Shown: positions 3,201 through 19,846 of the stretch, in pieces
Layout of the letters: each line of letters begins with the position of its first letter
How positions within the stretch are numbered: position 1 is the first letter of the stretch
From: a virus
DNA length: 21,565 bases
Strand: one strand, 5' to 3'
IMG/VR virus record: IMGVR_UViG_3300021137_000117
Coordinates: 1 to 21,565 of that record
Program-made: the position numbers and the translations under genes
Notes under the pieces: model-generated
What the model saw: only the letters and a program-made list of their open reading frames with translations
The model's database searches: none
Told to the model about the DNA's origin: nothing

Positions 3201-3722
3201 AGCACTTGCCGTGTCAGAATTGACTTTAGAATACCATTCAGTTGCTTGCTTTGAGGAGTGTGTACCGATTTCACCCAAAGCATAATTGCTGGTGCGGCGC
3301 GAGCCGGTTTCAAATGTATAACGTGCAGCATCAGTTGGCATATTTGCACCAAGTGATTGACGTAGAGCTTCTAATTGCTGCTCGACCTGCGGGCGCGCAC
3401 GCAATGCTGCTTCACCGTTCAAACCGAGGTAGCCAGTATCCGGCATGTCAGTGCCGTCTGGTCCTTTAATCATTTTGTTTGGATCACCATGCAAAATGTG
3501 ATTGGTTTGCTCTGTATATTTGTTTACCGCATCATCTGCCGATATTTCATTGTGAAGTGAGGCATATTTATTAAGCCCTTCCCCAAGTTTCCCCAAACCT
3601 TCTGCAATTTGACCACCAAAAGCATTTGGATTGGCCGCAGGAACACTAATCGGACCGGCTGAAGATGGGCCAATTGGTTCGACTGTAGGCGTGGCATAAG
3701 GATCAGAAAGGAAATTTGCCAT
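231..3722 (-). CDS. Large virion protein with SGNH hydrolase and lytic transglycosylase (SLT) domains
   Basis: 1163 residues, far longer than a stand-alone lysin. Residues 1-285 are polar and probably helical. Residues about 294-437 look like an SGNH/GDSL hydrolase: GDS at 299-301 with nucleophile S301, block III G347 and N350 in GVSND, and the acid/base pair D420 and H423 in DGVHP. Residues about 483-655 look like a Slt70-type transglycosylase: E512 in YIESRF as catalytic acid, GVMQFMPGT at 530-538, and ELYLAHQQG at 580-588. A Pro-rich linker and a long charged helical region of about 400 residues follow. Position after the gp13/gp14-like genes matches that of T7 gp15/gp16, so this is probably an internal virion protein ejected at infection to cut peptidoglycan. 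It has no signal peptide and is unlikely to be the endolysin. The esterase substrate is unknown; O-acetyl groups of peptidoglycan or of a surface polysaccharide are candidates. Confidence 0.85.
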   Translation of the reverse strand: MANFLSDPYATPTVEPIGPSSAGPISVPAANPNAFGGQIAEGLGKLGEGLNKYASLHNEISADDAVNKYTEQTNHILHGDPNKMIKGPDGTDMPDTGYLGLNGEAALRARPQVEQQLEALRQSLGANMPTDAARYTFETGSRRTSNYALGEIGTHSSKQATEWYSKVNSDTASAATQQIMAHPFDDAVLESAHHDIVNAHVKQALHDTGAVEGSPQYDAAIRDGEKYFLKVKIKAYGPTRPDKSFQLVKDNAQFLGLDYETLYDDYKRKADDYEGRNLAEGVSPPLPANSNPKNSFVIGDSIGEGIRTASGAPGDTTVGLTPNRILTKIQSMKAADFGTGAIIVSTGVSNDPKSIGIVADQIKAFTDMGIAPSRIHIAGVGTGPNDSFKNLNVNGQLSDIAKKAGVSFMGPLDPENLSSDGVHPKDYKKISDTIFPPNTPDNLHGSAASLTRTRGMVDASDIPPASSVGANALPTLAIPDAVRSTWGWKQAVEMEKQGGFSEQDLATTAYIESRFGANTGAGQPGHAAQGVMQFMPGTAKKYVHGSPLDPNESYIGAQRLAIDNRQDLNRRLGRDVTGAELYLAHQQGSVGAAALLGHPEMSAVDALTRYAYKGNRALAMQAVRGNIGKNDDSNISAQDFANKWIVTFNNAKAAIGGGRSMTMPASVSGAPDRPSTAAMGFAFRDFPITGTNTFAPQTNITTPSLGFSQSDMGSPPTLLTDYNKPDVVAPVSTAEEPAKPKVMPVSEDAIASEIKNGANVPPRPVEVTKQMIADSEAQAYQRIEESGASEEVKTIARAQVAKKATARNIQYETNMRKSADASRIAENDFTTQALTFDRKHDTANLNALVDKIINNDDLNASSKLSLYNLVNKLAGNDEDTYGAGVDDMMKRLTLPADRPDRIKSVGQLETLFANKEINKAGFQLGFSLLKDKQEGYTSSRAVVLNSLFERAKDELVLTQDYAGGKINTDIKGNIAKENAIRDIDTAMTKWVADGNDPTQFPLAIDPKKQDAFFKIYREPAEKEKAKYDALMEREKQESTLAIDTPMYRILAETNVPKPPAGVNPIEWNTMMRNLPKITEKSGTQRYVGADEWATVVTALLRDPKPENISAFNAKFATTQGISHAEDYIKKLGPPEDITRPLPDWSVMSPKNGAPPPNSTWRIY

Positions 3723-9107: not shown

Positions 9108-9476
9108 TTAATATTTATCGGAGTCCGTGGTATATCGGCTTTTCATACGATCTTCGTTGCTCATGGATGGCGGTTGTTCGTCCTCATCCTGTTCGACACC
9201 GAGATGTGTGATTTGAAGTTCAACACGGCGGCGAAGAGTTTTCTTGCCATCCTCTTCAACTTCATGCTGACTATATGCCGTGACTTTGGCCATCGCGTCA
9301 AAGGAGACGATGCTGCCAACTTCACAACTTATATCACCGAGTTTATCAAGCTCATCATCGCACAAAGAAATGCAAAGACCGTAAGGGTAGGTATTAACCA
9401 CCGGTTCAGTGGTCATACGTTCCTTTTTTTCTTCGACTTCATCTGGCGTTTTGGCCATGTGAACGAAAGATTTCAA
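9108..9476 (-). CDS. Capsid-stabilising (staple-like) small structural protein
   Basis: 122 residues if translation begins at TTG 9476, which has GGAG seven bases upstream and overlaps the preceding stop; ATG at 9458 (MAKTPDEVEE) is the alternative, with no clear ribosome-binding site. The block YPYGLCISLCDDELDKLG, followed by VGSIVSFDAMAKVTAYS and RRVELQITHLGV, is a small beta domain widely seen in tailed-phage head clusters and often annotated as a capsid-stabilising protein. The C-terminus carries SNEDRMKSRY, closely similar to the C-termini of two neighbouring small proteins and related to that of the scaffold. I infer a capsid-bound role. The family name is from memory of the pattern. 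Confidence 0.65.
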   Translation of the reverse strand: MKSFVHMAKTPDEVEEKKERMTTEPVVNTYPYGLCISLCDDELDKLGDISCEVGSIVSFDAMAKVTAYSQHEVEEDGKKTLRRRVELQITHLGVEQDEDEQPPSMSNEDRMKSRYTTDSDKY

Positions 9477-9823
9477 GGCTCTTCTCCCTTGGTTCCGATG
9501 TCTTTTTCGGAGTGCATGGCTTTGAGTTCTTCACCGTGACGTGCAATCATTTTCTGATGCTCATCAACATGGCGCGCATGAGTGTCAATCATTTCACCGA
9601 CATGACGTTCGCCCATTTCTTTATGCTCGCGGGAGTGACGATCAGCCACTTCACCCCAAGTTGCATCATGGCCAGCCGAAGGACCGGGATCTGGATGTGG
9701 GCCTTCACCATTCATTGCAGGTTTTCCGGCAGTTTCTTTGGCGCGATCTTCGGCAGCACCAATGACTTTTGAGGCCGTACCCTTGGTGTTGGAAGGATGT
9801 TTGTAACGATCTTCACCAGCCAT
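9473..9823 (-). CDS. His-rich protein with four 11-residue repeats, function unknown
   Basis: 116 residues from ATG at 9823, with AAGGAT about nine bases upstream. The first 55 residues are polar and Gly/Pro-rich. Residues 62-105 form four consecutive 11-residue repeats, each starting with Arg-His (R62, R73, R84, R95) and with Glu at the fifth position: RHSREHKEMGE, RHVGEMIDTHA, RHVDEHQKMIA, RHGEELKAMHS. This suggests an amphipathic helix with a hendecad, possibly right-handed coiled-coil, register. The many His residues could also bind metal. It lies in the capsid accessory cluster, overlaps the staple-like gene by four bases, and is probably a minor virion or assembly protein. No enzymatic motif is visible. 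Confidence 0.65.
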   Translation of the reverse strand: MAGEDRYKHPSNTKGTASKVIGAAEDRAKETAGKPAMNGEGPHPDPGPSAGHDATWGEVADRHSREHKEMGERHVGEMIDTHARHVDEHQKMIARHGEELKAMHSEKDIGTKGEEP

Positions 9824-9827
9824 AATA

Positions 9828-10010
9828 TCAATCCTTTTTACCGTATCGGTCTTTCATACGCTGTTCGTTCGATTTTGGGAAGGTTTTTCCCTTATCAGCT
9901 TCAGCGAAATCTTTACCTACAGACTGTTTGATACCGACTTTTTTGGCGAAACTCTTATTGTGAGCGACCGCCTCCATAAGCCGATGTTGTTTTCCGCTGA
10001 CTGAAGGCAT
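9828..10010 (-). CDS. Conserved small basic phage protein
   Basis: 60 residues from ATG at 10010, with an excellent GGAGG five bases upstream. The start MPSVSGKQHRLMEAVAHNKS, then FAKKVGIKQSVGKDFAEADK, matches a very widespread short phage protein found in structural gene clusters. Its role is not known to me. It is strongly basic. The C-terminus SNEQRMKDRYGKKD shares the R-M-x-x-R-Y pattern with its neighbours at 9108 and 10012. The ribosome-binding site overlaps the stop of the preceding gene, so the two are probably coupled. Confidence 0.75.
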   Translation of the reverse strand: MPSVSGKQHRLMEAVAHNKSFAKKVGIKQSVGKDFAEADKGKTFPKSNEQRMKDRYGKKD

Positions 10011-10011
10011 A

Positions 10012-10233
10012 TCAACCTCCGTATCTGCCGGCCATACGAGCCTGATCGGTCATACCGGGACCGGCAGGAGCGCCAGCAGGCATAGGAGCACCAGCAGGGG
10101 CACCACCATCAGCGCCGCCAGCAGCATTCTGCGCCTGAGCCTGAGCAGCCATAGCTGCGGCGTCTTTGGCAGCCTTGGCGGCTGCCGCTTTCTTTTTGCC
10201 GTATCGCTCAACAGCTTTGTCGCGCTTAGCCAT
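10012..10233 (-). CDS. Ala/Gly/Pro-rich small protein with an RYG motif at each end
   Basis: 73 residues from ATG at 10233, with GGGAGA at proper spacing; another ATG five bases upstream is in a different frame. The N-terminal 30 residues are basic and Ala-rich (AVERYGKKK, then KAAKDAAAMAAQ). The middle is low-complexity Gly/Ala/Pro and likely disordered. The C-terminus TDQARMAGRYGG carries the R-M-x-x-R-Y-G pattern shared with the proteins at 9828 and 9108. A flexible linker between two similar end motifs suggests a bridging peptide, for example between two capsid subunits, but that is inference. No catalytic feature is visible. Confidence 0.65.
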   Translation of the reverse strand: MAKRDKAVERYGKKKAAAAKAAKDAAAMAAQAQAQNAAGGADGGAPAGAPMPAGAPAGPGMTDQARMAGRYGG

Positions 10234-10262
10234 TTCATTCTCCCGAATACGAGCCGTTTGAC

Positions 10263-10937
10263 TCAGTTCATTGCGTTCACTTCGAAAAAGTTGAGCAGAA
10301 TATCGGAAGTTGCGGTTGCTGCGTTGCCAGTGACAGCAATCAGGATCGCGCCGCTTTCTACAGCGGTGGTCGCCAAAGGCAAACCCATGCCGCCATGTGT
10401 GGTGCCGACAATGGTTGCGGTTTCCTGTGCATACTGAGTGTTGGAGCCAGCCGCACCATATTTGAAAATGTTAGTTGCAAGCTGCCAGCCAACATTGTTA
10501 CCGGTAGATACACCGGTGGTTGCAACAGTCGTGCCACCAGCACCAACTGTACTACCAACAACAGCCGTTGCAGGGTTAAAAATAATCTTGGCTGTTTTGT
10601 TGTTATTGGTAGCCGCGAATGCGCCGACTGCAGTTAGGGATAGGCCGCGACCAGCAATGTCAAACGCGCTGGCGGGCAGAGCGTAAACGGCCAAAACCAC
10701 ATCACTACCTGTTGCGGCAGGGGATACGCCTGTGCCAGATACGAAACGGTATAGATTACCTTCTTCCAAGAAATAGCCGGTGCTTGAACCGAACTGAGTC
10801 TGCGCGCCTGAAGTCAGACCAGCCGCAGCGCCAGCCTGAACGAGACCCTGAACAGATGTGATTTCGGAGACAGCCGCAGGCTGACCATTAGGCTGAAGGC
10901 CAACTACATAGAGAATTTCGGAGCCTGAGAGTGCCAT
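10263..10937 (-). CDS. Beta-rich phage structural protein (putative head decoration or fibre protein)
   Basis: 224 residues from ATG at 10937, with AGGTG five bases upstream. The N-terminus ALSGSEILYVVGLQPNGQPA is a frequent phage structural motif. The following part is low-complexity Gly/Ala/Ser. From about residue 80 a beta-rich domain begins (VLAVYALPASAFDIAGRGL, then KTAKIIFNPATAVVGS, WQLATNIFKYGAAGSN and a final ILLNFFEV), with the look of a jelly-roll. It sits two genes after the cement protein and before the capsid accessory cluster. It could decorate the head or form a short fibre. I recognise the N-terminal pattern from phages but know no verified function. Confidence 0.65.
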   Translation of the reverse strand: MALSGSEILYVVGLQPNGQPAAVSEITSVQGLVQAGAAAGLTSGAQTQFGSSTGYFLEEGNLYRFVSGTGVSPAATGSDVVLAVYALPASAFDIAGRGLSLTAVGAFAATNNNKTAKIIFNPATAVVGSTVGAGGTTVATTGVSTGNNVGWQLATNIFKYGAAGSNTQYAQETATIVGTTHGGMGLPLATTAVESGAILIAVTGNAATATSDILLNFFEVNAMN

Positions 10938-10961
10938 TTTACACCTATCTTCTGATTAGAA

Positions 10962-11621
10962 TTAAATAAGAACGCCTATACCGCTTTGACGGCCAAGAAG
11001 TTCGGATCGGCTCGTCGCAATTGCGGGTGCCGCTTTATTTGCGGCAGAAACCGGATCTGCGCGGAGTTTTGTTTTGGCTGGCGTCTTAAAAGACGACTGG
11101 CCGGAAATGCGAGTGTTTGACATGACGGGAACATTACCAATTCGCTGTGGCGATTTAAGGTTATCCAATTCCGGCATATCACGAGGCAGAATGCCTTGTT
11201 TCTGATATTGAAGTTCAAGAGCGCGTTGAAGAATTTTGCCCTGATATTCGGCCAATGATTGTGCGTCATCACCTTCTTTAGGACGCATCTGCATTGCAGC
11301 TTCAATGATATTTTCGAATGCTGGTGTTTTCTGAGCCGAAGGCAAAGTGCGAAGCCAAGCACGCATACAGCGTTCGGCAGCTGCGTTTTTTGGTTCCATA
11401 AATTCATTCGGCGGAATTAGACCGCCAGTAACATCTTCAAAACGTGCGCCTTCAGGATAATAAATATCGTCAGGCGACATAAATGCAGCAAGCAGTTCAT
11501 AAATCGGATTTTCAGACTCCGATTCAATTTCAGCATGGCCCTGAAGCGCGCGAAGTTGCTCGCTCAGATATTTCACTTGAGCTTGAAGATCAGAAAAATC
11601 TTCTGTGACAGCGTTTGACAT
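10962..11621 (-). CDS. Hypothetical structural-cluster protein
   Basis: 219 residues from ATG at 11621, chosen because AAGGG lies seven bases upstream; a longer frame reaches 11657 but would start inside the perfect stem-loop and lacks a ribosome-binding site. The N-terminal 30 residues are predicted coiled coil (DLQAQVKYLSEQLRALQGH). The centre is mixed acidic (SPDDIYYPEGARFEDVTGG) with helical segments. The last 50 residues are basic, Ser/Ala-rich and probably disordered. It lies between the cement gene and the second beta-rich structural gene. I do not recognise a family; a minor head protein or an assembly factor is plausible from position only. Confidence 0.65.
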   Translation of the reverse strand: MSNAVTEDFSDLQAQVKYLSEQLRALQGHAEIESESENPIYELLAAFMSPDDIYYPEGARFEDVTGGLIPPNEFMEPKNAAAERCMRAWLRTLPSAQKTPAFENIIEAAMQMRPKEGDDAQSLAEYQGKILQRALELQYQKQGILPRDMPELDNLKSPQRIGNVPVMSNTRISGQSSFKTPAKTKLRADPVSAANKAAPAIATSRSELLGRQSGIGVLI

Positions 11622-11643
11622 AAATTTACCCTTGTGATGATAA

Positions 11644-11668
11644 GGCCGCTGTGACAATCACAGCGGCC
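11644..11668 (-). terminator. Perfect 11-bp stem-loop after the cement gene (weak terminator or RNA-processing site)
   Basis: Arms GGCCGCTGTGA (11644-11654) and TCACAGCGGCC (11658-11668) pair perfectly around a 3-base loop. It begins ten bases after the cement stop codon in the direction of transcription. The bases that follow on the minus strand (TTATCATC) are only partly U-rich, so it may attenuate rather than end transcription, or protect or process the upstream mRNA. Confidence 0.65.
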
Positions 11669-11678
11669 AGAGTTGATA

Positions 11679-12239
11679 TTAAGCGCCGACCGTAAAGTTG
11701 CCAGCGTAAGCAGGCCCGGTCTGGAAGTCTGGACGCTCGGAAACCATACCAGCAAACGAGATCGTACCAGCGGTGAAAGTACCCACTGGGATGTAAGCCA
11801 ACTGCAAGAAACGATACAGTTTCTGGCCAGCTGCGCGACGTGGAATGTCGGGCAGAGGGATGTAGGAGTTGGATGCGGTCAGGTTTGCCAGAGGAATAGC
11901 ACCGGTTTCAGCAATGGTCTGGAAAGTCAGGCCAGAGAAGTTGCCCGAACCCTGCGTATCCACAGCGGCCTGAATAGCGATGTTCAGCGAAGTACCACCT
12001 GCAAAGGTTGTACCGATTGCTGCGTACATCATCAAGCGCTTTGGACCAATGCCGAGATCCTCGCCATAATATGTCGCATTGCCGTCATTGATAGGCGATG
12101 TGGCATAAGTAGAACCGGTATTCATCAAACCTGTTGCCAGATCATAGATGCCGGTCGAAATGACGGTCGAGCTGGTGATGGCCTGAGCCGAACCAGTATT
12201 ACCGCCAGTGAAGATAAGATTGATGTCTGTCTGAGCCAT
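11679..12239 (-). CDS. Capsid cement/decoration protein, Bbp16-like
   Basis: 186 residues from ATG at 12239, with AAGGAAAT about eight bases upstream. It is a compact beta-rich protein immediately after the major capsid gene. Elements such as GIYDLATGL, then GIGPKRLMMYAAIGTTFAGG, LNIAIQAAVD and FQTIAETGAIPLANL, and the late YRFLQLAYIPVGTFTAGTIS resemble the Bbp16 cement protein family of Bordetella phage BPP-1, a jelly-roll protein that clamps capsid subunits together. Stem-loops lie on both sides of the gene (12265-12299 and 11644-11668), which fits a transcript made at high level. The family call is by eye. Confidence 0.75.
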   Translation of the reverse strand: MAQTDINLIFTGGNTGSAQAITSSTVISTGIYDLATGLMNTGSTYATSPINDGNATYYGEDLGIGPKRLMMYAAIGTTFAGGTSLNIAIQAAVDTQGSGNFSGLTFQTIAETGAIPLANLTASNSYIPLPDIPRRAAGQKLYRFLQLAYIPVGTFTAGTISFAGMVSERPDFQTGPAYAGNFTVGA

Positions 12240-12264
12240 GTCAAATTTCCTTTTGTCCTAGAAG

Positions 12265-12299
12265 GGAAAGTGTCTCACCGTTAGGTGAGACGGCTTTCC
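12265..12299 (-). promoter_or_regulatory. Stem-loop containing the major capsid stop codon
   Basis: An 8-bp perfect stem (12272-12279 with 12284-12291) has a 4-base loop that holds the TAA of the capsid gene. A second stem (12265-12270 with 12294-12299, GGAAAG/CTTTCC) extends it past a small internal loop. No U tract follows, so it is more likely a processing or mRNA-stability element than a terminator. Confidence 0.5.
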
Positions 12300-13318
12300 G
12301 TATTAAGGAGCGAGTCAACGATCCGGATTGGAACGCCACGGAAATCGACGATAGGCATACCTTCGTATTCGCGTGGGGTGAGCAGCACGTTTTTATCACG
12401 AATTGCCTGAATGTCCATGTACTGACGAACAGTACGATTGACATACCAAGCTGGACGCATGGCCGGTGCTGGCTGGTTAGGAGCATCAACTTTGGTGATG
12501 CCGGAGATACGACGACCAGCGGTCGGAAGGCGTACAACAGCCTTTGACATCAGGGCGAAAATATCAGGTGGGGTTGTGCCAGCAAGGCCAGCGGTCGTGG
12601 TATCGAGGTTGGCGATACGAACGAAATACTGCCAGTTCTTGATGTGCAGACCGCATTTCCACATGAATAGCGAGGTGTAAGCCTCAAATTCACGCTGGTT
12701 GGCGTCGAAGCCCGGACGAATGTCGCCCTTATCTTCAAACACCAGACCTGCTTTGGAACCTTTGGGATAGAAGCCGAAACCGGTCTGTTCGCCCCAGCAA
12801 GCCAGCCAAATCGAAGCGTTAGAAGAGCCAGTACCACCACCGTCGAGAACGTTTACGGCGTTCTGTGCGTTTGCAGTCGAAACGGTGTTGAAACGAGGAG
12901 CAAGGCCAGTGAACTGAGCCTGTGTCACAAGTTCGTTGCCGTAGAAGAAGGTTGTGGACATCTGCTGAGACAAACCTTCGAGATGGGCATTATCTTCCGT
13001 CAGGCGCAGAGCTGCAACGTTGCCTTCGAGTTCGGCCAGCGAGCGGTCGATACGGGAATAGGCTACGAGTTCGCCAATCGAGTCAGTAACCTGTGCGGTC
13101 GTCGATTTGGTGAATGCAACACCCTGATAGAAGTTGCGCCATGTACCCTGTGGCAAGCCGGTACGAATTGTACCAGTGTGACCGAGGGTCTGGTTGCCTT
13201 CGCGCCAAAGCATGTCGTCGAAGATTTCATTGCACTGGGCGAGCATCTCTGCGATGTCGTCGATGCTACCATCACGACCAACGCGGCGACCCCAGTCTGC
13301 CAAAGTTAGATAGGACAT
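12281..13318 (-). CDS. Major capsid protein, BPP-1 Bbp17-like
   Basis: 345 residues from ATG at 13318, with GGAG seven bases upstream. The N-terminus (LTLADWGRRVGRDGSIDDIA), the block WREGNQTLGHTGTIRTGLP followed by TWRNFYQGV, and STTAQVTDSIGELVAYSRID match a major capsid family known from podophages including BPP-1, with an HK97-related fold. EMLAQCNEIFDDMLW and a MSTTFFYGNE stretch are also typical. About 345 residues is the usual length. The gene follows the scaffold gene after an 83-base spacer, the longest gap inside the operon, and precedes the cement gene. Its stop codon lies in the loop of a hairpin. Confidence 0.88.
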   Translation of the reverse strand: MSYLTLADWGRRVGRDGSIDDIAEMLAQCNEIFDDMLWREGNQTLGHTGTIRTGLPQGTWRNFYQGVAFTKSTTAQVTDSIGELVAYSRIDRSLAELEGNVAALRLTEDNAHLEGLSQQMSTTFFYGNELVTQAQFTGLAPRFNTVSTANAQNAVNVLDGGGTGSSNASIWLACWGEQTGFGFYPKGSKAGLVFEDKGDIRPGFDANQREFEAYTSLFMWKCGLHIKNWQYFVRIANLDTTTAGLAGTTPPDIFALMSKAVVRLPTAGRRISGITKVDAPNQPAPAMRPAWYVNRTVRQYMDIQAIRDKNVLLTPREYEGMPIVDFRGVPIRIVDSLLNTESRLT

Positions 13319-13401
13319 TATACGGCTCCATTTTTAGGACTAGCGCGCTTACTAAGCGGGCTGGGGCGTTCCTGCCGGAACACTTTCTGCGTTTACAAGA
13401 T
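13319..13401 (-). other. 83-base spacer before the capsid gene with two small hairpins
   Basis: Two short dyads are visible: GTTCC/GGAAC (13368-13372 and 13377-13381) and CGCTT/AAGCG (13346-13350 and 13354-13358). I see no convincing promoter. The spacer could set a processed 5' end for capsid mRNA, but this is weak evidence. Confidence 0.3.
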
Positions 13402-14271
13402 TTAACGATTACCGCTATACCTTGCCAAACCTCTTTCTTCGCGCGACATTTTCGGCGCGCTTGGTGGCGGTGCCGGAACCGGTGAAGCCTCTCTACCCAG
13501 AGCCTTACCGATATTATGGAACATCCGCAATAAAAGCGGGTTATTCCCGGCTCCTGTAGCTGTCAGCACATTTTTCAGTGCGATTTGCTGGTCAGGAGAA
13601 CCACCATATTGATCTATTACAGATGCCACAGTTCGCATAGCTGTCACAAGACGGCTTCCACCAATTTCGGGGTCGGCCTTTACTTCAGACTTCCATTGCT
13701 CTTGTTGACGGTTAAAAACATCCCACTGATGCTGTGCAACATTCTTAGCTGCTATTTGCAACTCTGCCAAGTGCATATCTAAAAACTTTTGGCCCATTTC
13801 AGGTGGCACTTTTGCTTCGCTAAGTGCTGTCGTATATTGGCCCATCAGTTCCGGATTCACACTTTCAGGTTTTACACCTTCAGGGAATTGGAATTTATAT
13901 TCAATCGGCTGCGGTTCGACCGGAGCTTCAGTAACAGGGTCTGAAAGTTCTTTAGCCGCATCATCGGCTTTAGGTTCTTCAGCTGCCTGTTTAACGGCCT
14001 CATCTAATAATAAGGACGCAGGAGTTGGTTCTGGCGCATCTGAAGGCTTTGGAGCCTCAACAGGTGCCGATAATTCTGTTGCCGCAGGAGTAGCAACTGC
14101 GGGCGCTATTACTTCTACCGCAGGTGCGGGTGTATTGTCAACTGGTGCAACCGATACGGGTGCACTTGGTATTGATTCAACTGGGGCAGATGCTGGCGCA
14201 GGGGCAGATACCGGCGCAGAACCTTCGGCCAGACCGTCCGGCGCGCGCAAAATGCGTGAATACAAATTCAT
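13402..14271 (-). CDS. Scaffolding protein
   Basis: 289 residues from ATG at 14271, which overlaps the preceding stop (ATGA) and has GAGGTG upstream. Residues about 18-120 are Ala/Pro/Val-rich, acidic and low-complexity. Residues about 125-265 are helical and match phage scaffolds placed before the capsid gene: PPEMGQKFLDMHLAEL, HQWDVFNRQQEQWKSEVKAD, then GGSPDQQIALKNVL and TGAGNNPLLLRMFHNIGKAL. The C-terminus is KMSREERGLARYSGNR, a basic tail of the sort that binds coat in other scaffolds, and it resembles the C-termini of three small proteins near 9-10 kb. No protease catalytic motif is apparent, so scaffold removal probably does not depend on a fused protease. Confidence 0.8.
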   Translation of the reverse strand: MNLYSRILRAPDGLAEGSAPVSAPAPASAPVESIPSAPVSVAPVDNTPAPAVEVIAPAVATPAATELSAPVEAPKPSDAPEPTPASLLLDEAVKQAAEEPKADDAAKELSDPVTEAPVEPQPIEYKFQFPEGVKPESVNPELMGQYTTALSEAKVPPEMGQKFLDMHLAELQIAAKNVAQHQWDVFNRQQEQWKSEVKADPEIGGSRLVTAMRTVASVIDQYGGSPDQQIALKNVLTATGAGNNPLLLRMFHNIGKALGREASPVPAPPPSAPKMSREERGLARYSGNR

Positions 14272-17051: not shown

Positions 17052-17264
17052 TCACTGACCTGTTAGAGATTTACCAGCGGTCGGAGTTGCCCCTACGCCC
17101 TGCCCGCCTGTAAACAGCGTGTTATCAAAACCACCACCGGCGGCAGCGGCTGATCGCATACGGGCGGCTTCACCTGTTGCAGCTGCCGAACCATTGGCCG
17201 CAGACGGAGGATTTGCACTTGGCGGTGGAGGAGGTGGCGCTGATGGTGGTGATAGAAAACCCAT
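17052..17264 (-). CDS. Pro-rich small phage protein
   Basis: 70 residues from ATG at 17264, with GGAG six bases upstream and one base after the preceding stop. The start MGFLSPPSAPPPPPPS, an Ala/Arg-rich middle (EAARMRSAAAAGGG) and an end GATPTAGKSLTGQ match a short protein seen before the portal in many podophages. Function is unknown to me. The composition implies disorder. A longer frame to 17285 lies inside the upstream gene and is less likely. Confidence 0.7.
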   Translation of the reverse strand: MGFLSPPSAPPPPPPSANPPSAANGSAAATGEAARMRSAAAAGGGFDNTLFTGGQGVGATPTAGKSLTGQ

Positions 17265-17265
17265 A

Positions 17266-17532
17266 TTAAGCTCCAAAAATAACAAGAAATGCAGCTACAG
17301 TGGACAATACAACAGAAGCCAATGAAAGCATCACACCTGACATGCTACGTTCTTTTGCACCCCAGAATGAATCAGATACGTCTGATTGATACGAAAGATG
17401 TGCCAGACCGACCGCAATCAAAATTATAGCCATTGCCCAATGGTTATCGCGCTCTAAGCAGCGAATAAATACCATACTCGTAAACAGTGCGCCATATAGA
17501 TGCAAACCAAAAATGTTTCCGTTGTAAGACAT
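17266..17532 (-). CDS. Small membrane protein with three transmembrane segments (candidate holin)
   Basis: 88 residues from ATG at 17532, overlapping the upstream stop as TGATG; GGGG lies about nine bases before it. Three hydrophobic segments are visible at about residues 7-26, 32-49 and 64-87, the last ending at the C-terminus. Size and topology fit a class I holin, which times lysis by making holes in the inner membrane. However, no endolysin or spanin gene is next to it and charged C-terminal residues typical of many holins are absent. A virion or superinfection-related membrane protein is also possible. Confidence 0.6.
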   Translation of the reverse strand: MSYNGNIFGLHLYGALFTSMVFIRCLERDNHWAMAIILIAVGLAHLSYQSDVSDSFWGAKERSMSGVMLSLASVVLSTVAAFLVIFGA

Positions 17533-17762: not shown

Positions 17763-18325
17763 CGGGAACCACCACCCTTAAATCCGAGATGCCGGTAATT
17801 CTCGCGCACCACATTCCCAACGCCATCACCGGTGTGATGACCTGCACCTTTGGTATTTGCGACACCCGCCGGTCGCGTATAAGAACCGGCCAACATCTTA
17901 GGCAAAGGTTTATATTCGCGCGAAGCGGTTTCGATCTGACGCACTCCCAAACCCATCAAAGCAGCCAATTCGTTTGAAGCGATACCGCCATCCGCATCGG
18001 CAGGAACTTCAAAATCATCGTCAACAACATCATCGTCGTAATAAGTTTCTTCAGGCTCAGGTTCGGGTGCAGGCGCAGCTTGCAATATGCGAGTAGGCGC
18101 GCCCTGAATTTGCGGTGGCAGCGCTGGCCGAGGCCGTGGCCGATCAATCGGTACTTCGGCGGCTTGCATTGATGCCGCAGAAATATTATTGCGGCGCTGA
18201 CGCACCAACATACGCATAAACGATGACGCATCAAGCCCAAGCATATCGGCTTCAGTCTCAATCCATGCTGCGTCCTCACCGGACAAACGCACCATCATGC
18301 GTGTGCTATTCGAATCTTTGCTCAT
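17759..18325 (-). CDS. Ribbon-helix-helix protein with a long disordered tail
   Basis: 188 residues from ATG at 18325, overlapping the terminase stop (ATGA) with GGGAG upstream. Residues about 8-45 resemble an Arc/MetJ-type ribbon-helix-helix: a short strand RMMVRLSG, then helix EDAAWIETEADMLGL, a turn, and helix DASSFMRMLVRQRR. Such domains bind DNA as dimers through the strand. Residues 57-115 are Pro-rich then strongly acidic (DDDVVDDDFEV). The C-terminus has a conserved-looking NYRHLGFKGGGSR end. Placement between terminase and portal suggests a packaging or late-regulation role, but this is inference. Confidence 0.65.
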   Translation of the reverse strand: MSKDSNSTRMMVRLSGEDAAWIETEADMLGLDASSFMRMLVRQRRNNISAASMQAAEVPIDRPRPRPALPPQIQGAPTRILQAAPAPEPEPEETYYDDDVVDDDFEVPADADGGIASNELAALMGLGVRQIETASREYKPLPKMLAGSYTRPAGVANTKGAGHHTGDGVGNVVRENYRHLGFKGGGSR

Positions 18326-19161
18326 TGTAATGTACTCCCTTTATCAATCATCCAACCCTCCGCCATCGGCGTATAATCAATCTGGTGCTTAGAATGCGTA
18401 ACCAATTTACCCCATTCTTCGCGCGGGCTTTGAGACGCAGCGGTAATGCCGCTTCGCACCAGATAGCGCGTCGCATCCATCGCGTGATCATTCTCTTTAA
18501 CGACTTTGCCGTTTCGGTCGCGCCGATAAATGCGGAACTCGGCCAGCCAATTTCGCATCGAGCGAAACACTTTTAATCGGCCAGTTGATAACCGCTGCCA
18601 AACATCAAAGATGCCGGCCTCAACCGCATTGTCAGCGGGAGTCAAATGCAAACCCAAATTCGTATATGACACCAGCAATTGTTGGCCATCGTGTTGCGCG
18701 CGACCGCGAGATGCCGGATCAATCACGCCGGGTATCCATCGGCCTCGTGCCATAATCGACTGAACGTGAATTGCCGGATCGGCTTGACCCCGATAATGCT
18801 CGGCGTACAAATAGACCGTATCATTGTCAACATCGACCGCGCCCCAGATCGCTGCCGTCCGGTTCCAACCTACGTCTAATCCGTAGACTTTGGTAAAATG
18901 CAGTGGAATATCGAAAGGATCCACAAGGATGTCATCTTCGGATATAGGATAGATAGATCCAGAACCCAGTTCTGGTATTCCTCGTGTACGGCTTTCACGC
19001 TGGTGGGGAGGAATTGCAGCATACAGATCATCCTTCTGCTTTTTGGTCAGATGTGGTGCTTCATCCCATGATACCTGAACGCAAAACCTTGACATCTTAT
19101 GATCCATCCCCGGTTTCATTGGCCGGTGCCATGTGCGGTAAGAACCGCAGCGCAACTTCAC
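18322..19161 (-). CDS. terL: Terminase large subunit, C-terminal nuclease part (second frame)
   Basis: The nuclease half of the large terminase. After the overlap region the sequence reads SRFCVQVSWDEAPHLTKKQK, AIPPHQRESRTRGIPELGSG and SIYPIS, all typical of the link between ATPase and nuclease domains. Acidic metal-binding candidates are D96 in GLDVGWN, D148 in VIDPASRG, and D225 or D229 in NDHAMDATRYL (numbering from the GTG at 19161). That GTG directly follows an in-frame TGA and encodes no known terminase sequence, so it is probably not a real start. The ATPase half is in the preceding frame; the combined product would be about 507 residues, normal for TerL. Either a +1 shift joins them, an assembly error separates them, or the gene is broken. 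Confidence 0.85.
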   Translation of the reverse strand: MKLRCGSYRTWHRPMKPGMDHKMSRFCVQVSWDEAPHLTKKQKDDLYAAIPPHQRESRTRGIPELGSGSIYPISEDDILVDPFDIPLHFTKVYGLDVGWNRTAAIWGAVDVDNDTVYLYAEHYRGQADPAIHVQSIMARGRWIPGVIDPASRGRAQHDGQQLLVSYTNLGLHLTPADNAVEAGIFDVWQRLSTGRLKVFRSMRNWLAEFRIYRRDRNGKVVKENDHAMDATRYLVRSGITAASQSPREEWGKLVTHSKHQIDYTPMAEGWMIDKGSTLQ

Positions 19162-19164
19162 TCA
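19097..19164 (-). other. +1 frame transition window in terL with GGGG slippery candidate
   Basis: The first frame stops at 19097 and the second is closed by TGA at 19164-19162, so a join must occur between these points. The minus-strand text ACC GGG GAT in the first frame becomes CCG GGG ATG in the second. The GGGG run (plus-strand CCCC at 19108-19111) allows a Gly tRNA to slip +1 from GGG to GGG, 3 codons before the TAA. The same spot is where a one-G length error would produce the split. Confidence 0.55.
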
Positions 19165-19846
19165 AACCCTTCAAAGGTGTGAAGGTGCACATCATAATAC
19201 CATTTGTTGTCATCAAACGCATCAGACATTCATCGTAAACATCGGCGGGCGGTTCTTCGTCCAGCCAGATCACATGCTTGGCCGTACCCTGAAATTTTGC
19301 GCGGCCAGATTCAGACGATTTCAAACCAATCGTGCTGACGCCACCAGACTTATGCCTCACCCGAAATGTATCGACCGCTTCTGCGATACCTTGTCGCCGT
19401 GTTGGTTCACCATCAAGGCAGCGATATGGTATCATACCTGTGCCAAAATCGCCAAATCGCCCTAACAGTGCAAACTGGATAATATCGCGGGTGGTTTCGT
19501 TCGTATCACCGGCTGCCCACATATCACATGGGGCTTCAAACCTTCGGCCTGTCCACCAATCGGGGTATTCACCGGTGGCGTGTAATGTGGTTTCAAAGCT
19601 GCCGCCGATTGTCTTGCCGGAACGGTTGCCGCCCATGAACGCACGTTCTTGATGCTCTGCACCAGCGGCGAAGAACTCAAGATGCTTCCGGTACAATTCT
19701 CGACGGAACGGCCCGCTATTCGGGAAGTATGTTGAGATTGCGTTGCGGCGCATCCTTAACGTCAACTCGGCCTGTAGCTTCTCCTGTAGAGCCAACAGCT
19801 GAGACGGATTTAATATTTGCAAGGATGTTGACAATTTCTTCGTCAC
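19097..19846 (-). CDS. terL: Terminase large subunit, N-terminal ATPase part (first frame)
   Basis: 249 codons of the packaging motor ATPase. Walker A is GGNRSGKT at residues 72-79; Walker B is HVIWLDEE at 191-198 with D196 and E197; the coupling motif is CTFTP at 220-224. The frame ends at TAA (19099-19097) just where the ATPase-nuclease linker should continue, and the nuclease half follows in the +1 frame. Translation probably starts at GTG 19846, since a stop precedes it, or at ATG 19753 (residue 32). The GTG start overlaps the end of the small terminase gene by 131 bases, the ATG by 38. In the cell the subunit would dock on the portal and pump DNA by ATP hydrolysis. Confidence 0.87.
   Translation of the reverse strand: MTKKLSTSLQILNPSQLLALQEKLQAELTLRMRRNAISTYFPNSGPFRRELYRKHLEFFAAGAEHQERAFMGGNRSGKTIGGSFETTLHATGEYPDWWTGRRFEAPCDMWAAGDTNETTRDIIQFALLGRFGDFGTGMIPYRCLDGEPTRRQGIAEAVDTFRVRHKSGGVSTIGLKSSESGRAKFQGTAKHVIWLDEEPPADVYDECLMRLMTTNGIMMCTFTPLKGLSEVALRFLPHMAPANETGDGS

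Follow-up and report, generated by a model that had tools for sequence, protein, structure and literature searches.

In phages T4 and P1, short terminal peptides send internal proteins into the head: the capsid targeting sequence of the T4 internal proteins IPI–IPIII and the N-terminal signal of P1 DarB. The T4 sequence has been suggested, in passages of two papers, as a route for taking in varied proteins (PMC9026906, PMC9024508). Here we describe a similar peptide, hereafter the tag, in the IMG/VR virus record IMGVR_UViG_3300021137_000117 (positions 1 to 21,565; this whole 21.6-kb stretch is called the window), which, judged by its genes, is a fragment of an epsilon15/BPP-1-type podovirus whose head and tail genes lie on the minus strand. 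The tag ends the scaffold-like protein and stands on several small proteins of the head gene cluster, among them a member of the epsilon15 gp10 family. As in the T4/P1-type capsid targeting sequences, a short terminal peptide is common to unrelated head proteins, the carriers being presumed head proteins from the place of their genes. The T4 and P1 signals are N-terminal, and that of T4 is cleaved off, whereas the tag stands mostly at C-termini, forms the scaffold's own end as well, is not known to be cleaved, and is documented from sequence only.

In phage lambda, the protease gpC and the scaffold Nu3 share their C-terminal part through in-frame nested genes, and the UL26 protease of herpesviruses shares its C-terminal end with the scaffold through overlapping genes. 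The herpesvirus case resembles ours in that the scaffold's own tail serves to bring in a second protein; however, separate copies stand on unrelated genes here, and lambda differs in that the sharing is achieved by nested genes. According to passages of PMC12005531, the herpesvirus major capsid proteins attach to the last 25 residues of the UL26/UL26.5 scaffold proteins, and the coat-binding part of P22 gp8 is a U-shaped C-terminal hook domain. P22 gp8 is alike in having its coat-binding part at the scaffold C-terminus, but that part is a hook domain and not a single short motif. To our knowledge, which no search has extended, there are no natural copies of the gp8 coat-binding domain on other P22 proteins. 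The nearest working analogues are the capsid targeting sequences of T4 and P1 and the C-terminal end of the herpesvirus scaffold, and the shared tail may be regarded as a capsid-targeting-like system, new in that the tag would be the scaffold's own end copied on unrelated genes. We found no paper on this shared tail in the titles and abstract openings of the matches listed by searches of the open-licence PMC literature, which is not proof that none exists.

The shared peptide in the window

The carriers and their tags are given below. Tags were scored with a position-specific scoring matrix (PSSM) trained on scaffold tails alone (threshold 6.4, the 99% level of internal sequence).

13402-14271, minus strand: scaffold-like protein of the epsilon15 gp6 / BPP-1 Bbp18 family, encoded just upstream of the coat gene (phrog_458, 3.9e-27)
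13405-13446, minus strand: its C-terminal tag SREERGLARYSGNR, read directly
9108-9476, minus strand: epsilon15 gp10 family protein (PF21628, 2.3e-10, 41.1 bits, above the cut-off of 27; phrog_825, 5.6e-16; PDB 3j40_N, E 0.0034)
9111-9161, minus strand: its C-terminal tag SNEDRMKSRYTTDSDKY, with RY 7 residues before the end (PSSM 3.8, below the threshold of 6.4)
9828-10010, minus strand: small protein with the widespread MPSVSxKQHxLMEAVA domain and a C-terminal tag (phrog_16759, 3.7e-23)
9831-9872, minus strand: its C-terminal tag SNEQRMKDRYGKKD (PSSM 7.5, threshold 6.4)
10012-10233, minus strand: 73-residue A/G/P-rich protein with a tag at each end (no good family match)
10015-10050, minus strand: its C-terminal tag TDQARMAGRYGG (PSSM 7.7, threshold 6.4)
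10192-10224, minus strand: its N-terminal copy RDKAVERYGKK, found only in the window and near-identical contigs
9473-9823, minus strand: His-rich helical protein with the N-terminal tag-like MAGEDRYKH at 9797-9823; its homologues start alike

The original prediction stated that four non-homologous proteins of the window end alike. Re-reading confirmed R[MG]xxRY at all four C-termini, and the second RYGKK reported near the N-terminus of 10012-10233 is present as VERYGKKK at residues 8–15. Among the 27 window genes, which are open reading frames (ORFs) chosen by hand, the motif is confined to 4, in each case within the last 20 residues. Shuffling that kept the composition gave a mean of 0.0035 over whole proteins (2000 shuffles, maximum 1) and of 0.013 over tails only (5000 shuffles, maximum 1). 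The looser R...RY is also found in 4 genes, with shuffle means of 0.044 (whole protein, maximum 3) and 0.063 (tail, maximum 2). Because the motif was picked after sight of the sequences, its covariation in relatives, described below, is the stronger evidence. The absence of homology among the carriers holds as far as tested: they belong to phrog_825/PF21628, phrog_16759 and phrog_458, and the A/G/P-rich protein is unmatched. The codons of the four copies differ (AGA..AGG TAT in the scaffold, CGT..AGA/CGA TAC/TAT in the others), which makes a recent DNA duplication or a Shine-Dalgarno by-product unlikely. The gene 9473-9823 had been missed earlier, and its start is one of the looser forms of the tag. 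As a general pattern R[MG]xxRY proved too narrow; it fits the window's clade only, and the family-wide form is an aromatic residue with a variable preceding residue.

We take 13402-14271 as the scaffold because its gene lies directly before the coat gene and its product has a long unstructured N-terminal part and a helical core; phrog_458 itself is annotated 'protease'. The two neighbouring head genes are as follows.

12281-13318, minus strand: major coat protein, epsilon15 gp7 / BPP-1 Bbp17 family (PF20911, 7.9e-115; solved relatives 3j4u (9.1e-74), 3j40 and 8cjz, used as sequence matches only)
11679-12239, minus strand: Bbp16-type cement protein, untagged, a negative control family (PF21190, 1.1e-6, 29.3 bits with a cut-off of 27.1; 8cjz_B, 0.0002; 3j4u_H, 0.033)

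Together with a Bbp19-type gene near the coat gene (PF25181, 26.1 bits, cut-off 25), the window has the gp7/Bbp17-type coat, Bbp16-type cement and Bbp19-type genes of the epsilon15/BPP-1 head family close to one another. The genes 10962-11657 and 10263-10937, between the cement gene and the small genes, gave no useful match in Pfam or PHROGs.

Scaffold and gp10 tails across the family

Coat-gene loci (numbered with the prefix L) were gathered from IMG/VR, GTDB genomes and 23 GenBank phages. The gp10 and scaffold models were built without the last 22 and 25 residues, respectively, so that the tag could not aid detection, and the L016 row (an MPSVS protein, not gp10) was excluded from the gp10 model. 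These tail-less models found the coat in 210, the scaffold in 203, gp10 in 83 and cement in 202 of the 211 loci, which include the window and leave out the duplicate contigs L209-L222, L224 and L226-L228 and the MPSVS-only loci L026-L105. Clustering at 90% coat identity reduced the 211 loci to 139 representatives. A scan with the window gp10 alone retrieved just near-identical contigs.

In the representatives, [LMFIR][YFW] was present within the last 25 residues of 131/133 scaffolds and 44/47 gp10 proteins. The corresponding values for the control tails were 26/139 (coat), 26/135 (cement), 49/115 (Bbp19), 24/118 (tail-tube A) and 10/110 (portal), and 13–14% for internal 25-mers. The only scaffolds lacking an aromatic tail anchor were those of L117 and L143. 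Thirteen representatives around the window have RY as the scaffold anchor, with R five places before Y (RxxxRY) in 10/13; the other 120 mostly end in [LMF][YF][P/G], with A four places before the aromatic residue in 84. The PSSM passed 123/128 scaffold tails (its own training set) and 33/42 gp10 tails, and the controls passed in 0/129 (coat), 1/116 (cement), 1/105 (Bbp19), 1/109 (portal) and 0/98 (tail-tube A) cases. The gp10 number is 42 in this test and 47 elsewhere because gene-like ORFs were picked by length; some of the ORFs picked in this way are shadow frames, and real small genes may have been missed. The peptide marks the scaffold and several small head-cluster proteins, as the original prediction had it. 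In homologues it is not free to vary, and its form matches in most cases that of the scaffold of the same phage.

The gp10 proteins mostly carry the scaffold-tail variant of their own phage. The scaffold and gp10 tails are SDLISAFYPKK and ELKDAFYPDGEDD in epsilon15 (cores ISAFYPKK and KDAFYPDG) and QRSAAEVLYGK and EKSAAETLYGNGGE in phiV10 (cores SAAEVLYG and SAAETLYG). The scaffold and gp10-family tails are GDARRLYAASNMNP and SAAQRLYGASSMSA in BPP-1, EDARAAKLYDKS and EQRAAKFYANTPTT in BcepC6B, and WNRMYPDM and YARMYADDPSMKD in CP2; the Caulobacter phage Jess A has VDAKSLYPNSNHN on the scaffold and DRAAKLYKDTD on a gp10-like protein, the gene of which lies at 4345-4695 of L113. The mean best local score was 26.3 for own pairs and 20.0 for foreign pairs (N=47, 90% coat clusters), a difference with a z of 6.7 that was reached by 0/5000 permutations. 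At 80, 70 and 60% coat clustering (N=28, 16 and 10), the own-pair similarity was reached by 0, 2 and 0 of 5000 permutations, with a z of 4.5 at 60%. The effect was also seen inside the LY clade (z 5.7, 4.7 and 3.3 at 90, 80 and 70% clustering; 0, 0 and 12 of 5000). The own gp10 partner scored above the mean of phages with a 45–75% identical coat in 32/46 cases (Wilcoxon 5e-5, a value that is too optimistic because the 46 phages are related). Control pairings, with the tails of cement, Bbp19, tail-tube A, coat and portal or with the gp10 stretch before the tail, gave |z| < 1.9 throughout. The shared peptide is real, is conserved and covaries specifically with the scaffold.

These controls bear on the notion that the likeness of the ends is a neutral bias of the lineage, produced by composition, by the ribosome-binding site of the following gene or by gene conversion. 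The genes do overlap or abut, and RYGG codons resemble a Shine-Dalgarno sequence; nevertheless, the tag codons differ between copies, neither the control tails nor the gp10 stretch preceding the tail shows an effect, and the motif also occurs at N-termini and can start 22 residues from the end (L009 gp10). We regard a neutral origin as highly improbable.

A role of epsilon15 gp10 as an outer decorating 'staple' has been proposed and questioned. In PMC9207676, as far as its relevant passages go, the epsilon15 density once built as the gp10 'staple' is judged a misassignment and given to a protein of 130 amino acids (aa). The published 3J40 chain had a map-model correlation coefficient of 0.71 and the predicted 111-aa gp10 one of 0.10, and the value for the 130-aa protein was 0.61, rising to 0.81 after refinement; the same source mentions a putative identification of gp10 in virions by proteomics. 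In the epsilon15 record, the Bbp16-type protein gp8 is also 130 aa long, and from this length we ourselves would identify it with the density. In Pfam, PF21628 bears the name 'Gp10-like, Major coat protein-like', which is probably misleading because it rests on the assignment later judged wrong (PMC9207676). A 2025 paper, in the part that concerns gp10, still calls it a staple, on the inner surface (PMC12391199).

Other carriers and neighbouring genes

The tails of 9828-10010 and 10012-10233 pass the PSSM narrowly (7.5 and 7.7). By eye, further credible carriers are the KWI-type proteins (phrog_20603), a phrog_16160 protein (only weakly DUF6582-like) and a 65-aa protein in L270, one of phrog_16028 in L122, and a number of proteins in L230, L007-L009, L011 and L015. 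For ten small carriers, all Pfam matches were below the cut-offs and all PHROGs names were 'unknown function'.

The MPSVS domain is very common in phage contigs (at least 80 loci among the matches listed). In contigs without epsilon15-type head genes, none of the 77 MPSVS and 36 KWI proteins among the matches listed (0/113) has an R...RY tail; many of these contigs are short or mutually similar, and the MPSVS loci were not made non-redundant. In contigs with epsilon15-type head genes, 4/7 have R...RY and the other three RERLY, RQARLY and RGERWY; among the loci of these seven carriers, L026 and L027 nearly duplicate the window, and L311 and L015 are one contig.

Mostly found at C-termini, the tag is N-terminal in one copy of 10012-10233 and in the His-rich family, the homologues of 9473-9823. 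The homologues start with DRSKRYANPP, DRTKRYENSP, DRAEKRYPKK, RRERMYGKG, RDWYDK and similar peptides; some starts were shifted to an inner Met (for example in L015, L020 and L021). A strict pattern, written as a regular expression after the sequences had been seen and applied to hand-picked N-termini, matched 7/11 His-rich homologues and 6/168 other gene-like ORFs of the RY clade; the first count was 8/12, from which L223 was removed, having no detectable homology to the His-rich family. The four misses (the window, L022, L023 and L313) are looser forms. The N-terminal tag likewise follows the scaffold in L020, where the scaffold has SRAEKRYGKN and the His-rich protein DRAEKRYPKK. L313 shows an unusual WY in three unrelated proteins: NRGWYDKS in the scaffold, SRGERWYGKKD in the KWI protein and KKRDWYDK at the His-rich N-terminus. 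This locus was found via a KWI protein whose own tail is RKKGRYGG, not via the L313 scaffold or coat. On the L312 contig, which does not include the scaffold, the MPSVS protein ends in RRERLYTNK and the His-rich protein starts with REGRRERMYGKG (RRERMYGKG).

The position of the tag also bears on whether it is a processing or degradation signal, a protease site or degron that removes the scaffold and accessory proteins after assembly. A terminal position suits a degron, and the annotations of phrog_458 ('protease') and of epsilon15 gp6 ('putative endoprotease') speak for it too. Against this reading, the tag is N-terminal in the His-rich family, and band masses in PMC3863775 suggest that the BPP-1 coat and cement proteins stay uncleaved. 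We give such a signal little credence.

Phages of other lineages (L028-L105; for example L063, L038, L049 and L081) show another C-terminal peptide, SASxRADG[IC]AxRGKTRG, which several ORFs of a contig can share. Among the 78 loci in the matches listed, counted with any redundancy between them, 15 have no copy of this pattern, 32 have one and 31 have two to five. It was not at the end of the presumed scaffold in L040, L050, L057, L063 and L076, where that protein is an ORF of ~300 aa judged by its place and found in 5/8 contigs inspected. A claim that all phages share the tag was accordingly dropped, and SASxRADG[IC]AxRGKTRG is possibly a second, independent tag system.

Two further observations concern other genes of the window. 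The large terminase lies in two minus-strand ORFs within 18322-19846, the N-terminal half at 19097-19846 and the C-terminal half at 18322-19161. The DNA is identical in L003, the halves are also separate ORFs in L299 and L304 (the latter beginning at a locus end), and four loci have a single ORF; the gene may be naturally split. The small protein encoded ahead of the portal (window 17052-17285; epsilon15 gp3; phiV10 3357-3563; Carin1 2179-2388) has a recurrent C-terminus, approximately LTGxxGxxxxxxxxGKxLLGQ, which occurs in many of the GenBank phages gathered and has no relation to the tag.

Partner of the tag and proposed mechanism

Pairwise scaffold-tail similarity was regressed on coat, scaffold core, portal, cement and tail-tube A similarity in 93 phages. 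The coat had the largest weight (0.309, null standard deviation (s.d.) 0.071, ~4.4 null s.d.), the portal weight was 0.133 (null s.d. 0.097), and the scaffold core had no weight (0.008, null s.d. 0.077). In the LY clade alone (86 phages; tails of 12, 16 and 22 residues), the coat reached 4.0–4.8 and the portal 1.7–2.1 null s.d., with the core at ~0. The coat is most likely the partner of the tag, judging from these correlations.

Binding of the tag to the portal or the portal-coat junction, with tagged proteins joining the initiation complex at one vertex, would agree with the second-largest weight being that of portal similarity (0.13–0.21; 1.4–2.1 null s.d.) and with the P22 scaffold hook, which likewise anchors on the portal according to a passage of PMC12005531. 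As the coat weight is larger in 4/4 regressions, however, we consider this unlikely. Binding to the scaffold core, in which scaffold tails would hold neighbouring scaffold molecules and accessory proteins would join that lattice, would likewise yield a shared tag, but the weight of the core is nil (0.008 overall, -0.05 to -0.01 in the LY clade) and we judge it quite improbable. The docking to the coat suggested by the original prediction stands in part: the coat is the best-correlated partner, and the portal is a weaker second candidate.

AlphaFold2 (AF2) models place the tag of the gp10-family protein 9108-9476 in the last helix, residues 107–115 (predicted local distance difference test, pLDDT, 79 for the model). 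In the scaffold model, approximately residues 1–130 are unstructured and helices at 140–262 (pLDDT > 90) are followed by a linker and a short helix, 277–286, holding the tag at moderate confidence (pLDDT 74–77). Structure searches with the gp10 and scaffold models gave no PDB match below E 0.001. The window scaffold model does not show the U-shaped hook fold of the P22 type; AF2 predicts one short helix after the linker. The comparison with the basic C-terminus of P22-type scaffolds is accordingly an analogy only, the tag being a short linear motif that mostly takes the non-basic form [LMF][YF][P/G].

We propose, with a probability of about 0.62, that the peptide is a short linear docking tag and that accessory proteins enter the procapsid via scaffold mimicry, probably at the coat protein. 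The C-terminal tag of the scaffold would bind a site inside the immature head, for which the coat protein is the most likely place. The gp10 family, the MPSVS- and KWI-type small domains, and the His-rich and A/G/P-rich proteins would present this tag at one end or at both, bind a site of the same kind, and co-assemble into the procapsid, replacing a fraction of the scaffold. Because all tags would face one site, they would change together when that site changes. We infer the coat as partner, the procapsid entry and the fate in the mature virion; the idea that the small proteins are later held on the mature shell was not supported.

Several results weigh against this proposal. The coat and the tail have a common phylogeny, so the coat link is a correlation among genes of one phylogeny, and portal similarity correlates too, as noted above. 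On average, 23–31% of foreign gp10 tails outscore the own one. Nine of the 42 gp10 tails fall under the PSSM threshold, including the window's own (3.8 vs 6.4) and those of L021, L023, L223 and L230; the gp10 proteins of these four loci and of L018-L020 have a mostly acidic end with no motif, and that of L312 has no tag. No gp10 was detected in 86/133 scaffold-bearing representatives, so tagged partners would be optional. Among other gene-like ORFs, 30/1902 pass the PSSM where ~19 are expected by chance; this class is therefore near background, and only the small head-cluster genes inspected by eye are credible.

The loci with untagged gp10 (L018-L021, L023, L223, L230 and L312) carry the tag on other small ORFs of the same contigs. 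It looks as if the tag had moved from gp10 to another carrier in these phages.

A broader form of the proposal, to which we would give even odds, covers the whole epsilon15/BPP-1 superfamily. The docking peptide of the scaffold would act as an exchangeable tag for procapsid entry. By gaining it at one terminus or the other, small domains of a shared phage gene pool (MPSVS, KWI, phrog_16160, LWANIHAKRERI and others) would become head cargo, and each cargo's tag would co-evolve with the coat site.

If the docking proposal is true, the small phage proteins that ride in the head in the family of epsilon15, phiV10 and BPP-1 could be told by a rule readable from sequence alone, and the proposal would suggest a role for the gp10 family now that the 'staple' assignment is doubted. 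It would also provide a short tag for loading proteins into heads and grounds for counting among the head cargo a number of very common small phage domains whose function is unknown. The finding points to a coat-scaffold contact that may be mapped by covariation.

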